DNA of 64,000 bases from Halomarina halobia (lineage in GTDB: Archaea > Halobacteriota > Halobacteria > Halobacteriales > Haloarculaceae), in contig NZ_CP119992.1 of the NCBI RefSeq assembly GCF_029338575.1, positions 1,364,001 through 1,428,000 on the forward strand. Reading direction: 5' to 3'. The position numbers were made by a program, and so were the translations under genes. The notes under the pieces were generated by a model that was not told where the DNA came from, did not search any database, and was given only the letters and a program-made list of their open reading frames with translations. Below are positions 19,076 to 23,835 of the stretch, one piece after another; position 1 is the stretch's first letter, and each line of letters opens with the position of its first letter.

Positions 19076-19765
19076 ATGGGGGTCGAGATTAGGGAGTCAC
19101 CCGTCTCGGAGGACGCGTTCGACGAGATGAAGCAGTTCGTGAACGACTACCTCACCGCCAGCGTCGAGAGCGAGGAGACCGGCGGGCGGATGCGCTGGTA
19201 CCCGTGGCACTCCGCGGAGTACCGGTTCAACCACATCCTGAACGTCGTCGGCCTCGCGACGAAGATCGCGGAGCGGGAGGGCGCGAACGTCGACGTGGTC
19301 CGGGTCGCCGCGCTGTTCCACGACATCTCGAAACTGGAGGCCGACCAGGACGCCCACGCGGAGGAGGGTGCCCGCGTCGCCCGCGAGTACCTGACCTCCC
19401 ACGGCGACTACCCGCAGTCGTTCGTCGAGGAGGTCTGCGCCGCGATCCGCGATCACTCCTACCAGGGACCGCTCACGGATCTCCCGCTCGAGACGCGATG
19501 TCTCATCGAGGCGGACCTGCTCGACAAGGTGGGCGCGAACGGGACGACGCTGATGCTCCTGCGGATGGGGTACGAGGCGCGCACGCACGTGGACGCCTCG
19601 GAGATGGTCGCCCGCGTGCTGGAACGCGGCGAGGACGCCGTTCGCCGCATCGAGAGCGACACCGCCGAGAGCATCGCCCACCAGCGGCTCAAGCGCGTCC
19701 GCTGGTTCCGCGAGTGGCTGGACGGCGAGGTCGCCGAGATGGACGTCGACGGCGACCGGGCCTGA
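19076..19765 (+). CDS. HD-domain phosphohydrolase-like protein
   Basis: A 229-residue HD superfamily protein. The metal ligands are visible: H in EYRFNHILNV, the HD pair in ALFHDISKLEAD (about residue 82), H in IRDHSYQ and D in EADLLDKVG. HD enzymes act on nucleotides or phosphorylated metabolites; the substrate here is unknown. A strong ribosome binding site supports the start. The gene is convergent with the LysE-type transporter that ends one base after it, so both share a terminator region. Confidence 0.85.
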   Translation: MGVEIRESPVSEDAFDEMKQFVNDYLTASVESEETGGRMRWYPWHSAEYRFNHILNVVGLATKIAEREGANVDVVRVAALFHDISKLEADQDAHAEEGARVAREYLTSHGDYPQSFVEEVCAAIRDHSYQGPLTDLPLETRCLIEADLLDKVGANGTTLMLLRMGYEARTHVDASEMVARVLERGEDAVRRIESDTAESIAHQRLKRVRWFREWLDGEVAEMDVDGDRA

Positions 19766-20434
19766 TCAGATCGCTCCGGCCACGGCCCGCGCCGCGTCGA
19801 CGAGGAAGTAGCAACCGAACCCGGCGAGCACGAGCGCGCTGAGCCCCGCGACCGCCGGCGCGAGCGCCTCGATGCGGCGCTCGGCCGCCACGAGCGCCGC
19901 CGGAAACGCCGTGATCCAGACGACGATCCCGCCGAACAGCCCCGCGAGCAGCGCCGGACTCCCCGTCCGCACGACGAGCGCCCCGGCGAGCGCCGCCGAG
20001 AGCGGTTCGAGCACGTCGACCGTCCCGGGGTTCAACAGCGCCACGCCGACGGTGAGCCAGAAGAGGACCTGGTACGGGTTCGTCAGCGCGAGCGCGAACG
20101 CCTTCCTGAAACCCTTGCCGTCGGCCCCCTCGGCGCGGAAGCCCCCGCGCACCTCGCGGGCCGCCCCGTACGCGAAGTAGAGCATAAGCACTCCGCCCGC
20201 GCCGACCATGATCGCCCGCACGGCCGGGAAGCGCCGAACGAACGTCACCGCGCCGAGCAGCGACCCGACCAGGAAGCAGAGGTCCGCCGTCATCGCTCCC
20301 AGCCCCGCGCGAAAGCCCGACGACCAGCCCCGAACGACGCTCTCCTCGGCGATGATCGCGTTCATCGGTCCGGGCGGCGCGGCGAGCGCGAGGCCGAAGA
20401 TCACCCCCGCGAGGAACGTGACGACGGCGCCCAT
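19766..20434 (-). CDS. LysE/RhtB family exporter
   Basis: A 222-residue integral membrane protein with about six hydrophobic segments. The family signature is at the N-terminus (AAPPGPMNAIIAEESVVRG), and NPYQVLFWL is a conserved loop. LysE-type proteins export amino acids or related small molecules. It begins at the ATG at 20434. The 170-bp spacer to the next gene includes a GC-rich palindrome and a GTTTATCAC box (about 20488-20496) that could be its promoter on the minus strand. The substrate cannot be inferred. Confidence 0.85.
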   Translation of the reverse strand: MGAVVTFLAGVIFGLALAAPPGPMNAIIAEESVVRGWSSGFRAGLGAMTADLCFLVGSLLGAVTFVRRFPAVRAIMVGAGGVLMLYFAYGAAREVRGGFRAEGADGKGFRKAFALALTNPYQVLFWLTVGVALLNPGTVDVLEPLSAALAGALVVRTGSPALLAGLFGGIVVWITAFPAALVAAERRIEALAPAVAGLSALVLAGFGCYFLVDAARAVAGAI

Positions 20435-20573: not shown

Positions 20574-20604
20574 ACGCGACGTGCCGCCTGTTCGCCCTCT
20601 CGGC

Positions 20605-21777
20605 TCAGAACCCCTGACCCATCAGGTGACTCCGGAGGAGGTCCGCGTCCTTCGCCCCGGCCGCCGTGTTGACGAGGACGACGGTGGCGTCCTCGTCGAG
20701 TTCGTCCGCCATCGCCCACGCCGCGCTCGCCGCGCTCGCCGCGGAGACGCCCATCCCGACGCCCTCGCGGCTGGCGACCGCCGCGGCGCTCTCCAGGATG
20801 TCGCCGTCGTCGGTAGCGACGGCACCGCCGTCGCTCTCGCGCAGCGCCGTCTGGACGAGGTCGCCGCCCGGCGGGTCGGGCCGCTCCAGTCCGCCGCAGA
20901 CCGTGTCCGGCACCTCCCACGGCCGGTGGGCGCTCTCGCCCGACTCGAACGCCTCGACGATCGGCGCACAGCCCGTCGACTGGGCGGCGTACAGCGGCGG
21001 CACGTCGTCGACCAGCCCCAGGTCGCGGAACTCGCGGCCGCCCTTGTGGAGCCCGAGGAGCCCGTCGCTCCCCTCGAACGGGTAGAAGACGGCGTCCGGC
21101 ACCTCCCAGTCGAGCTGTTCGAGCAGCTCGTAGAGCACCGTCTTCGCCCCCTCGTGGCGGTACGGCGTCTCGAGCGCCGCGAGCGAGTACCACGATTCCT
21201 CGGCCATCGCCTCGCGGAACGCCTCCTCGGCCTGGGGCAGTCGCCCCTCGACGACGCGCATGTCGCCGCCGTGGACGTTGATCATCGCCTTGTTGAGGAA
21301 CGTCGAGCGCGTCGGCACGAACGGGTGGCTCGTCACGCCCGCCCGGGCGGCGTACGCCGCCGCCGAGTACCCCGCGTCGCCCGTACTCGCGAGCGCAACG
21401 TCCTCGGCTCCGTGGCGGCGAGCGGCCGTCAGCGCGAGCGCCATCCCGCGGTCGGCGAACGTCCCCGTCGGATTCCCCCCCTCGTCCTTCACGACGACGC
21501 GCTCGACGCCGAGTTCGTCCGCGAGGGCCGGACAGTCGACCAGCGGCGTCGCTCCCTCGCCGAGCGTCGCGAGCGACGACGCGGGAAACGGGAGCAGTTC
21601 GGCGTACTTCCCGAGCCCAGGCCCGCGGGACTCGAGCGCCGCGCGGTCGAGGTCGATCGCGTCGTAGTCGTAGGCGGCGTCGAGGACGCCGCCGTCGGGA
21701 TGGTGGCTCGTCTCCGCGCCGAAGCGCTCGCCCGTCTCGGTGCAGACGAAACCGTCGAACGCCGCTGTCGTGTCCAT
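20605..21777 (-). CDS. threonine-synthase-like fold II protein lacking the PLP lysine
   Basis: A 390-residue protein resembling threonine synthase. The family block is EGATPLVDCPALADELGV, then KDEGGNPTGTFADRGMALALT; the usual NPTGSFKDR lysine that binds pyridoxal phosphate is alanine here (codon GCC, about positions 21456-21458). The rest of the fold is present (ASTGDAGYSAAAYAARAG, EGSDGLLGLHKG, SAASAASAAWA). It may have lost catalysis and become a binding or regulatory protein, or use another mechanism. It is divergent from the flavin oxidoreductase (93 bp). The length fits the family. Confidence 0.85.
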   Translation of the reverse strand: MDTTAAFDGFVCTETGERFGAETSHHPDGGVLDAAYDYDAIDLDRAALESRGPGLGKYAELLPFPASSLATLGEGATPLVDCPALADELGVERVVVKDEGGNPTGTFADRGMALALTAARRHGAEDVALASTGDAGYSAAAYAARAGVTSHPFVPTRSTFLNKAMINVHGGDMRVVEGRLPQAEEAFREAMAEESWYSLAALETPYRHEGAKTVLYELLEQLDWEVPDAVFYPFEGSDGLLGLHKGGREFRDLGLVDDVPPLYAAQSTGCAPIVEAFESGESAHRPWEVPDTVCGGLERPDPPGGDLVQTALRESDGGAVATDDGDILESAAAVASREGVGMGVSAASAASAAWAMADELDEDATVVLVNTAAGAKDADLLRSHLMGQGF

Positions 21778-21870
21778 GCGGTGGCTATCGCCGGGGACGA
21801 CAAATCGCTGTCCTTCGCTGCACCGGCGGAGTCGACAGCGTATTTACCGGTTCCGCGAGACGGGCCGGGT

Positions 21871-23133
21871 ATGGCACGCGCAGCGGTCGTCGGCGCGGGA
21901 CTCGCGGGGCTGGTCGCCGCCCGGCACCTCGCCGAGGCCGGTATCGATGTCGAACTGTTCGAGGAGAACCCCGAGGTCGGCGGGCGCGTCCGCAGCGTGC
22001 GCGAGGACGGGTTCACGTTCGACCGCGGCTTCCAGGTACTGTTCACGGCCTATCCGGCCGCGCGGCGGGAACTCGACTACGGCGCGCTCTCCCTCCGAAG
22101 GTTCACCCCGGGGGCGGTCGTCGCCCGCCTCGGCGAGCGCTCGGTGCTCTCGGACCCGGTCCGCGACCCCGGTGCGCTCACGGAGACGCTGTTCAACCGG
22201 GAGATCAGCCTCGCCGACAAACTTCGAACGTTCGCGCTCCAGCGCGAACTCCGGCGGAAGGACGGCGAGGCGATCCTGAACGGCGACGACGCCGACATCG
22301 AGACGTACCTCGCCGACCGCGGGTTCTCCCGGCGGTACGTCGAGAACTTCGCCGCGCCCTTCTTCGGCGGCATCACGCTCGACCGGTCGCTGTCCGCCTC
22401 GAGCGTCGTCTTCGAGTACGCGTTCAAGATGCTCGCGAGCGGCGAGATCGCCGTCCCGGCCGACGGGATGGGTGCGATCGCGGGGCAGTTGGCCGACCGC
22501 GCGCGGGACGCCGGCGCGACGATCCACACCGGGGCGCGCGTCGAGGCCGTCACCCCCGACGGCGACGGCGCGGCGCTCTCGGTCGGCGGGGAGACCGAGT
22601 CGTTCGACGCGTGCGTCGTCGCGACGGACCCGCGGACGGCGGAGGACCTGACCGGCGTCGAGACGCCCGGCGAGCCCCGCGGCTGCGTGACGCAGTACTT
22701 CTCGCTCCCGGAGCACGTCGACCTCGACGCGGGGAAGCGAATCGTCCTCAACGCCGGGGACGCCAGGCCGAACGAGGTCGTCCCGCTGTCGACCGTCGCG
22801 CCCGAGTACGCCCCCGACGGGGTGCAGCTCCTGAGCGCGACGTTCCTCGGCGACCCCGACGAACCGGAGGTGGCCCTCGCGGCGGCGGTGCGCGAGGCGC
22901 TCGAATCGTGGTATCCCGCACGCCGCTTCGACGACCTCGAACTCCTCCGGACCGAGCGCGTTCCGTTCTCGCAGTTCGCGCAACCGCCTGGCTTCCGCCG
23001 AACCCTCCCGGCCGCGGACGCGCCCGACGGGCCGGTCTACCTCGCCGGCGACTACACCCGGTGGTCGTCGATCGACGGCGCGCTGGAGAGCGGAAAGCGC
23101 GCGGCGGACGCCCTGAGCGGGGATCTAGAGTAA
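21871..23133 (+). CDS. FAD-dependent amine-oxidase/phytoene-desaturase-like oxidoreductase
   Basis: A 420-residue flavoprotein. The N-terminal dinucleotide-binding motif is VVGAGLAGLVAARHLAEAGIDVELFE, followed by NPEVGGRVRS (the FAD-binding block of the amine-oxidase/phytoene-desaturase group); the C-terminal FAD motif is PVYLAGDYTRWSSIDGALESGKRAA. The fold suits a dehydrogenase or protoporphyrinogen-oxidase-like enzyme, but the substrate is not evident. ATG 21871 is supported by the TATTTACC box about 28 bp upstream. The last 9 bases overlap the metallophosphoesterase gene on the other strand. Confidence 0.87.
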   Translation: MARAAVVGAGLAGLVAARHLAEAGIDVELFEENPEVGGRVRSVREDGFTFDRGFQVLFTAYPAARRELDYGALSLRRFTPGAVVARLGERSVLSDPVRDPGALTETLFNREISLADKLRTFALQRELRRKDGEAILNGDDADIETYLADRGFSRRYVENFAAPFFGGITLDRSLSASSVVFEYAFKMLASGEIAVPADGMGAIAGQLADRARDAGATIHTGARVEAVTPDGDGAALSVGGETESFDACVVATDPRTAEDLTGVETPGEPRGCVTQYFSLPEHVDLDAGKRIVLNAGDARPNEVVPLSTVAPEYAPDGVQLLSATFLGDPDEPEVALAAAVREALESWYPARRFDDLELLRTERVPFSQFAQPPGFRRTLPAADAPDGPVYLAGDYTRWSSIDGALESGKRAADALSGDLE

Positions 23134-23835
23134 CCGCCGGAACTCGCCGAGCCGCGGGAAGGCGTGGGTCTCGCCGGCCGTCTCGTCGCGGACGATCGGG
23201 CGGAACCGGTCGACGTCGGCGACGAGCGGCGAGCGCAGTGGCGTCCCCCGGGAGACGTTCCCGTTGATCGACACGCCGCCGGCGAGGCGGGTGAACGCGG
23301 GCAACACGAGGACGTCGCTTCCGTTCAGGACGCCCTCACCGTGGAGGAAGCACGGCCAGTCGCGCCCCTCGATGGTGATCTTCGGGTGGTCGTGGCCGAC
23401 GACGTAGCGCGGGGCACCCCGGTCGTCGGGTTCGGGTGGTTCGTGGCCGTGGAGGACGACGGTGCCGTCCGCGAGTCGGTGCGCGCGGCGGGTCGGTCCC
23501 GACCACACCGCCGCGAGCATCGCGTCGTGGTTCCCCGGCGTGACGACGAGCCGAGCGCCCGACTCGTCGACCAGTCGGTCGAGCGCCGCAAGGGTCCCCG
23601 CGACCCCCGCCGGGACGCGGTCGAACGAGTGGAGCGCGTCGCCCGCGAAGACGACCTCGGCGGGGTCGAAGCGGTCGAGCAGCGCGCCGAGGCGCTCGAC
23701 GAGGTCCGCGCGTTCGCCGAGCGGGAACGTCACGTCGGAGGTCGCGTCCCTGCCGACGTGGAGGTCGGCGAGGACGAGCGCGTCGGCGTCAGCGAGGTAG
23801 ACCGCCCGATCGCGGAACGTGAGGTCGGCCGGCAC
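23125..23835 (-). CDS. metallophosphoesterase
   Basis: A 236-residue calcineurin-type phosphoesterase of the archaeal YfcE/ICC-like kind. The metal and catalytic motifs are in order: LADLHVGRD, VFAGDALHS, TPGNHDAM, VLHGHEPP and VGHDHPKITI. It probably binds two metal ions and hydrolyses phosphodiesters or phosphomonoesters. The start at 23835 is 1 bp from the stop of the J-domain gene, so the two are co-transcribed. Its 3' end overlaps the convergent oxidoreductase by 9 bp. Confidence 0.88.
   Translation of the reverse strand: MPADLTFRDRAVYLADADALVLADLHVGRDATSDVTFPLGERADLVERLGALLDRFDPAEVVFAGDALHSFDRVPAGVAGTLAALDRLVDESGARLVVTPGNHDAMLAAVWSGPTRRAHRLADGTVVLHGHEPPEPDDRGAPRYVVGHDHPKITIEGRDWPCFLHGEGVLNGSDVLVLPAFTRLAGGVSINGNVSRGTPLRSPLVADVDRFRPIVRDETAGETHAFPRLGEFRRLL

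Follow-up and report, generated by a model that had tools for sequence, protein, structure and literature searches.

Can a protein of the threonine-synthase family still serve a cell once it has lost the lysine that binds PLP, and in what role? The question is raised by one gene in the 64,000-nucleotide stretch of Halomarina halobia DNA that was analysed here (the window). Its open reading frame has an ATG start and no internal stop and encodes 390 residues, with Ala as residue 108 in the motif GNPTGTFADRG, where fold-type-II PLP enzymes carry Lys (Table 1). The product matches Pfam PALP (PF00291) at 199 bits and scores 307 bits with the NCBIfam family PRK08197 'threonine synthase', 4 bits above the cut-off of 303, so that automatic annotation would give the name 'threonine synthase' to a protein lacking the cofactor site; its match to TIGR00260 (132.9 bits) stays below the cut-off of 167.1. 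The replacement of the PLP lysine by Ala (GCC) reported in the original prediction was confirmed, Ala being found also in the 91%-identical orthologue of the same-genus genome G004 and a residue other than Lys in 102 of 156 family rows.

Table 1. Features of the lysine-less gene and its surroundings (positions in the window)
Feature	Position	Strand	Basis or remark
Lysine-less threonine-synthase-fold protein, 390 aa	20605..21777	-	ORF, profile matches, AlphaFold2 model
NPTGTFADR motif, residues 102-110	21448..21474	-	Sequence
Codon 108, GCC (Ala), replacing the PLP lysine	21454..21456	-	Sequence; opposite 1uim residue 61
T132	21382..21384	-	Ala in 54/54 lysine-bearing relatives; convergent change, all six losses
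D134, replacing a conserved Asn	21376..21378	-	Opposite 1uim residue 87
K163, kept	21289..21291	-	Opposite 1uim Lys116; 101/102 lysine-less rows
R207, kept	21157..21159	-	Opposite 1uim Arg160; 101/102 lysine-less rows
Former PLP-phosphate loop, residues 235-239, EGSDG replacing GGGVG	21061..21075	-	Family alignment
P303-G304 (Gly-Ala in lysine-bearing relatives), convergent change	20866..20871	-	Family alignment
T371, kept here	20665..20667	-	Opposite 1uim Thr317; T in 58/102 lysine-less rows
Conserved block some 22-40 bp 5' of the ATG; likely a promoter element	21799..21817	-	Alignment of 9 Halomarina/Halocatena upstream regions
FAD amine-oxidase-type oxidoreductase, divergent	21871..23133	+	PF01593; conserved neighbour
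LysE-type translocator, downstream	19766..20434	-	PF01810; conserved neighbour
HD-domain protein	19076..19765	+	PF01966; conserved neighbour
Calcineurin-like phosphoesterase	23125..23835	-	PF00149; conserved neighbour

The residue correspondences with the Thermus threonine synthase 1uim given in Table 1 come from a phmmer alignment. In 1uim we take residue 61 (the Lys of NPTGSFKDR) to form the Schiff base, residue 87 to be the Asn facing PLP O3' and Thr317 to contact the pyridine nitrogen; Lys116 and Arg160 presumably contact the substrate phosphate, and Asn154/Ser155 are taken to be the threonine synthase substrate residues. In the window protein F107 and T371 are retained, Asn is replaced by Asp at 134, and the glycine-rich PLP-phosphate loop (GNAGN or GGGVG) is missing. 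Asn154/Ser155 are not kept, being A201/L202 in the window protein and T or S followed by F in its lysine-bearing relatives.

The AlphaFold2 model of the protein (mean pLDDT 95.6) has the Arabidopsis threonine synthase 2c2b as its best PDB match (Z 49.5 over 385 residues, rmsd 2.1), followed by the threonine synthases 6nmx (Z 46.6) and 1v7c (Z 46.5). Threonine synthases are again the best matches of the model (pLDDT 94.3) of L040, a lysine-bearing orthologue from Halorarius halobius. Judging from these models, the whole fold is retained in the lysine-less protein. Both models are nearer the ligand- or effector-bound forms (2c2b, 6nmx, 1v7c) than PLP-only or apo forms, and since the lysine-bearing L040 is modelled in the same closed form, the closed state tells nothing special about the lysine-less protein.

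A search of 59 related genomes gave family sequences from 54 of them and later from G013 and G042, and the family is present in 56 of the 59. A lysine-less copy occurs in 38 genomes, a lysine-bearing copy in 24 and both in 6. The tallies below rest on 156 full-length rows, 54 with Lys and 102 without, with three special lysine-bearing rows counted apart. The other 17 of the 176 distinct full-length rows stand outside the tallies: fragments or split frames (L099, L105, L108), a long-branch lysine-bearing row (L124), outgroup or other ThrC types (L002, L003, L111, L112, L144, L145, L147, L189, L196, L197) and basal NPTNTFKDR rows (L128, L129, L136). The latter three, with Asn for Gly in the motif, form a separate lysine-bearing branch, present as an extra copy in genome G004. 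Outside the haloarchaea, L189 (genome G159, same phylum) and L111 and L112 (Bacillota) are lysine-bearing with I-P-S/T-G-x-F-K-A-R; they form the nearest outgroup of the family and are possibly a distinct PLP enzyme. Canonical ThrC (L002 type, with NPTGSFKDR and GNAGN) is found in 56 of the 59 genomes, including that of the window, where it lies elsewhere in the genome; the threonine auxotrophy assay proposed in the original prediction is therefore unlikely to be informative upon deletion of the gene.

The comparison of the two sets of rows shows which residues were lost together with the lysine. K108 is invariant in the 54 lysine-bearing rows, whereas in the 102 lysine-less proteins position 108 takes 14 residue types (Ala 22, Thr 21, Leu 20, Val 13, Arg 7, Phe 6, Tyr 5, Glu 2, and Asp, Ser, Gly, Gln, Ile and His one each). 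The loop GGGVG (235-239) is intact in 54/54 rows with Lys and in 0/102 without, and N134, T371 and F107, each found in 54/54 lysine-bearing rows, are kept in 66, 58 and 15 of the 102 lysine-less ones, respectively. Seven residues (T104, D109, R110, R157, N167, Q266, D324) are each conserved in 102/102 lysine-less rows, K163 and R207 are each missing from a single row, and N102 is kept in 98. Among these, N167 is found in just 36 of 54 lysine-bearing rows; S383, D291 and G295 are likewise tighter in the lysine-less proteins. Ranking of the 390 positions by site rate is in agreement, with the largest gains from lysine-bearing to lysine-less rows including 108, 107, 238, 239 and 135 (at 108 partly by construction, rows being grouped by that residue, from which the other sites are free), and with D109, R110, K163, R207 and Q266 remaining among the slowest in the lysine-less rows. 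A relocated lysine was considered and rejected: the positions with Lys in more than 50% of the lysine-less rows (97, 163, 212, 245, 376) are all 100% Lys in the lysine-bearing rows, and none is new.

On this alignment, the PLP site was lost as a unit and the substrate site has kept its anion side, and the loss of PLP from the lysine-less proteins is strongly supported at the sequence level. The view that the other family motifs are intact therefore stands for T104, D109, R110, K163, R207 and others, which are nearly invariant, but not for the cofactor side, the phosphate loop being broken in all 102 rows and the window protein carrying D134 and EGSDG. An N-terminal Cys cluster (C-x2-C ... C, residues 12-31) is present in 53/54 lysine-bearing and 80/102 lysine-less rows; the window protein has a single Cys there. 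Three Halomarina orthologues (L033, L034 and L151, in genomes G002, G006 and G007) carry Lys again, in NPTGTVKDR, together with N134D and the loops EGTDG, EGTEG or DGTAG. Identical proteins link G002 and G007 to Halomarina oriensis and H. rubra, which points to Halomarina as the genus of the window. The Lys of these orthologues most likely goes back to drift where constraint is absent, or to partial reversion; as a counterpoint, its return in a broken site could be read as partial PLP use.

In a tree of 159 rows, built without another set of 17 rows (long branches, fragments and other ThrC types) that differs from the tally exclusions, the presence or absence of the lysine needs 7 changes. One belongs to the big clade that includes the window protein and one more to the three Halomarina rows with Lys; five are losses outside the big clade, in one genome of genus g43 (Arg), Haloglomus (Asp), G010 (Ala), Halococcus (Thr) and a Natrialbaceae-type group of 12 rows (Thr, Ala or Arg). 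When the PLP-site columns were removed, a 55-row tree still required 6 changes, and a single origin of its 27 lysine-less rows was rejected (log-likelihood 301 lower, AU p 1.6e-8). One loss occurred inside a single genus, where L159 has Lys and L161 Arg. These trees put the number of independent lysine losses at six or more, and the loci concerned are often collinear.

The losses share further changes. Of the 121 positions at which 98% or more of the lysine-bearing rows agree, 108, 132, 236 and 303 are altered in 6/6 loss lineages, 214 and 243 in five, and 107, 232, 297 and 304 in four; the big clade enters this count with 85 rows, including lysine-less rows from outside the 159-row tree that were put there by default. 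Ala132 becomes Thr, by majority, in all six lineages, which yields the S/T-T-G of canonical threonine synthase, and L161, the youngest loss, has 6 of its 8 such changes within the shared set. Four positions altered in all six lineages were reached in 0/5000 shuffles from the 121 positions and in 0/10000 from the 41 positions changed anywhere, with p 0.009 in the latter for the positions hit in at least four lineages; both nulls treat positions as equally mutable. The shuffles show a shared route and not, by themselves, adaptation, and since PLP contacts should all be freed after the loss of PLP, convergence alone is no proof of a new function. One conceivable origin of these common changes, gene conversion from a single donor, was examined. 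Lysine-bearing sisters are closest to L161 in 10/10 windows of the alignment, and the sister is closer in 7/10 for Haloglomus, 5/10 for G010, 8/10 for Halococcus and 8/10 for Natrialbaceae, the remaining windows being ties or nearer to the best of the 85 big-clade rows, where the bigger set has the advantage. Since the residues at 108 and 236 vary by lineage, the last four lineages are unlikely to have shared a donor.

The gene order around the two types is largely the same. The oxidoreductase gene, which starts 93 bp from the gene start and resembles HpnE weakly (107.7 bits, cut-off 283), is the commonest conserved neighbour (51 of the 106 surveyed loci). The locus of L040 has in common with that of the window the oxidoreductase, LysE, HD, GNAT, phosphoesterase and DnaJ-like genes, and the pairs L040/L039, L044/L064, L052/L054 and L159/L161 of lysine-bearing and lysine-less genes are also collinear. 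This common gene order supports the orthology of the two types; the Natrialbaceae gene, at a different locus, lost Lys there. The LysE exporter, proposed earlier as a hint of amino acid metabolism, proved a weak guide to function and was rejected as an explanation of the lysine loss, since the same block surrounds lysine-bearing orthologues and LysE is missing near many lysine-less genes. An 850-aa open frame on the forward strand (20581-23133) runs antisense across the gene and then through the real oxidoreductase; it is caused by high G+C and its antisense part is not evidence for a gene.

The codon-model omega of the lysine-less groups is 0.134 in Halomarina, 0.093 in Halosimplex, 0.130 in Haloferacaceae, 0.131 in Natronomonas, 0.131 in Natrialbaceae and 0.121 in Halovenus, compared with 0.087, 0.088 and 0.090 for three groups that have Lys and 0.124 in the mixed Halomarina set (pairwise values of 0.08-0.51 are rough because many pairs have gone far in synonymous change). 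With omega at about 0.09-0.13, the lysine-less gene is under purifying selection and is not decaying, as the original prediction of a full-length gene distinct from a decaying pseudogene had it.

Two marks of a pseudoenzyme, a non-catalytic homologue kept by selection, are found here: the loss of a catalytic residue and purifying selection after that loss (omega 0.093-0.134 in the six lysine-less groups). Because the cofactor site was lost as a unit, the remaining pocket is conserved, purifying selection is strong and the catalytic position is filled at random, we propose, with a probability of about 0.55, that the product is a pseudoenzyme of the threonine-synthase (fold type II) family that has no PLP, most likely a ligand-binding sensor or regulator and not a catalyst. 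The starting point was a PLP enzyme of ancestral haloarchaea, which keeps its lysine in some lineages and in others has undergone conversion several times over, at one and the same gene position. In the converted form the Schiff-base Lys is gone, the phosphate loop is broken and the O3' Asn is often altered, so that it should be unable to hold PLP; it retains the fold, the residues flanking the former motif and, in the substrate site, the cationic half (K163, R207, R157), and Ala132 of the substrate loop has become Thr as in true threonine synthases. The emptied pocket could then bind a small carboxylate or a phospho-amino acid directly, through S131-T132, K163 and R207, and its opening and closing may signal to a protein partner. 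A wider scenario is more tentative and, in our view, has clearly less than an even chance: haloarchaea would have turned one PLP enzyme into a PLP-free (phospho-)amino-acid sensor at least six times via one reproducible set of sites (K108 replaced by any residue, Ala132 by Thr, Gly236 and Gly303 lost, and often Ala304 replaced by Gly and Met243 by Leu), from a bifunctional ancestor whose non-catalytic job was selected.

Several other explanations were weighed against this sensor or regulator. A sequencing or assembly error at codon 108 has no point in its favour; the window's assembly has 10% reported contamination, and the error is refuted by Ala or other non-Lys residues in independent genomes, including the 91%-identical one; the suspicion that orthologues would have Lys fails on the alignment, in which most also lack it, and the chance of an error is practically nil. 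Relaxation and decay of the gene in many lineages would agree with the longer branches after loss (L161 0.189 against 0.021 for its sister L159; L064 0.377 against 0.065 for L044), but full-length open frames, omega of about 0.1, residues invariant over 102 rows and old retention make it highly improbable. Hardly better placed is a protein that holds PLP without a covalent bond, to store or to sense it: N134 and T371 persist in part of the lysine-less rows, as counted above, but the loop is broken in every one of them, often with Asp or Glu inside (EGSDG in the window), which should repel the phosphate.

More weight must be given to two functions in which the old pocket or fold is still used. 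The protein could remain an enzyme with PLP-independent chemistry, many pocket residues being invariant and N167, S383, D291 and G295 tighter than in the lysine-bearing type; the chemically random residue at the catalytic position speaks against it, as does the search for a new conserved catalytic residue in the lysine-less rows, which found none, and we regard it as improbable. The main rival, unlikely but the strongest of the alternatives, is a non-catalytic partner subunit that activates or regulates an active enzyme, for example canonical ThrC, as the eudicot TSB-like protein does for tryptophan synthase alpha. It would explain the retained fold, has in TSB-like a precedent of the same fold type in the accessible part of PMC12727527, and would find possible partners in the near-universal canonical ThrC and in an L003-type ThrC-like paralogue, detected in 50/59 genomes at E<=1e-45, a count in which at least three (G042, G044, G057) are cross-hits to canonical ThrC. 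Against it, the family's own lysine-bearing paralogue is no obligate partner, both copies occurring in just 6 of the 38 lysine-less genomes, and no linkage to ThrC was seen in the surveyed neighbourhoods. Of the functions originally suggested, regulator or binding subunit thus remains the best class, and a PLP-independent enzyme is kept as a rival.

Compared with known systems, the window protein has in common with threonine synthase (ThrC, EC 4.2.3.1; PRK08197/TIGR00260; 1uim, 1v7c, 2c2b, 6nmx) the fold, the N-terminal region, the NPTG..DR flanks and the equivalents of Lys116 and Arg160, and differs in lacking the PLP lysine, the PLP-phosphate loop and N154/S155, in having Asp for N87 and in coexisting with a separate canonical ThrC. 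Its PRK08197-type orthologue L040 (62% identity, same FAD-oxidoreductase / gene / LysE / HD locus) has, unlike it, K108, N134, GGGVG and T371 intact and scores 386 bits with PRK08197. Cysteate synthase (TIGR03844) has the same fold as the window model, CapA2 9k3c, presumably linked to this activity, being matched with Z 41.0; it differs in its profile, TIGR03844 being absent among the 24 NCBIfam families that match the window protein and giving a lysine-bearing relative 81 bits against a cut-off of 324.9. According to the accessible text of PMC12727527, eudicot TSB-like, a fold-type-II paralogue of tryptophan synthase beta, is non-catalytic, as is proposed for the family of the window protein, is likewise retained and widespread, has two key residues changed and was shown to activate TSA. 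In the haloarchaeal family the whole PLP site is instead gone, by sequence, and the loss is repeated at least six times. Another precedent for a non-catalytic PLP-family protein is M. tuberculosis Rv3778c, an expressed relative of cysteine desulfurase without the PLP lysine that its authors judge non-catalytic in the available part of PMC12910592; it differs in its kinship and as one case against a recurrent conversion. For the thrC paralogue thrC3 of Haloferax (HVO_2969), passages of PMC4300041 describe an insertion mutant whose growth defect is relieved when glycine, serine and threonine are all supplied. No thrC passage was found in the accessible part of PMC8305020, on open function issues in Haloferax, and no description of the lysine-less family in titles and abstracts on threonine synthase or on haloarchaeal or fold-type-II pseudoenzymes.

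The usual account of a pseudoenzyme is of one ancient event. The present case is a near-universal, mostly single-copy gene that has lost its active site at least six times, with lysine-bearing sisters living at the same loci, and because of these sister genes the order and cause of the conversion are directly testable, down to one genus (L159/L161). Should a phospho-amino acid bind in the emptied pocket, the protein would be an unusual kind of archaeal metabolite sensor.

Redundancy with the L003-type paralogue was also considered as a cause of the lysine loss and set aside, the paralogue occurring in lysine-bearing and lysine-less genomes alike, with no obvious correlation by eye. This paralogue has an internal TGA in G056 and lies in two adjacent pieces in G047.
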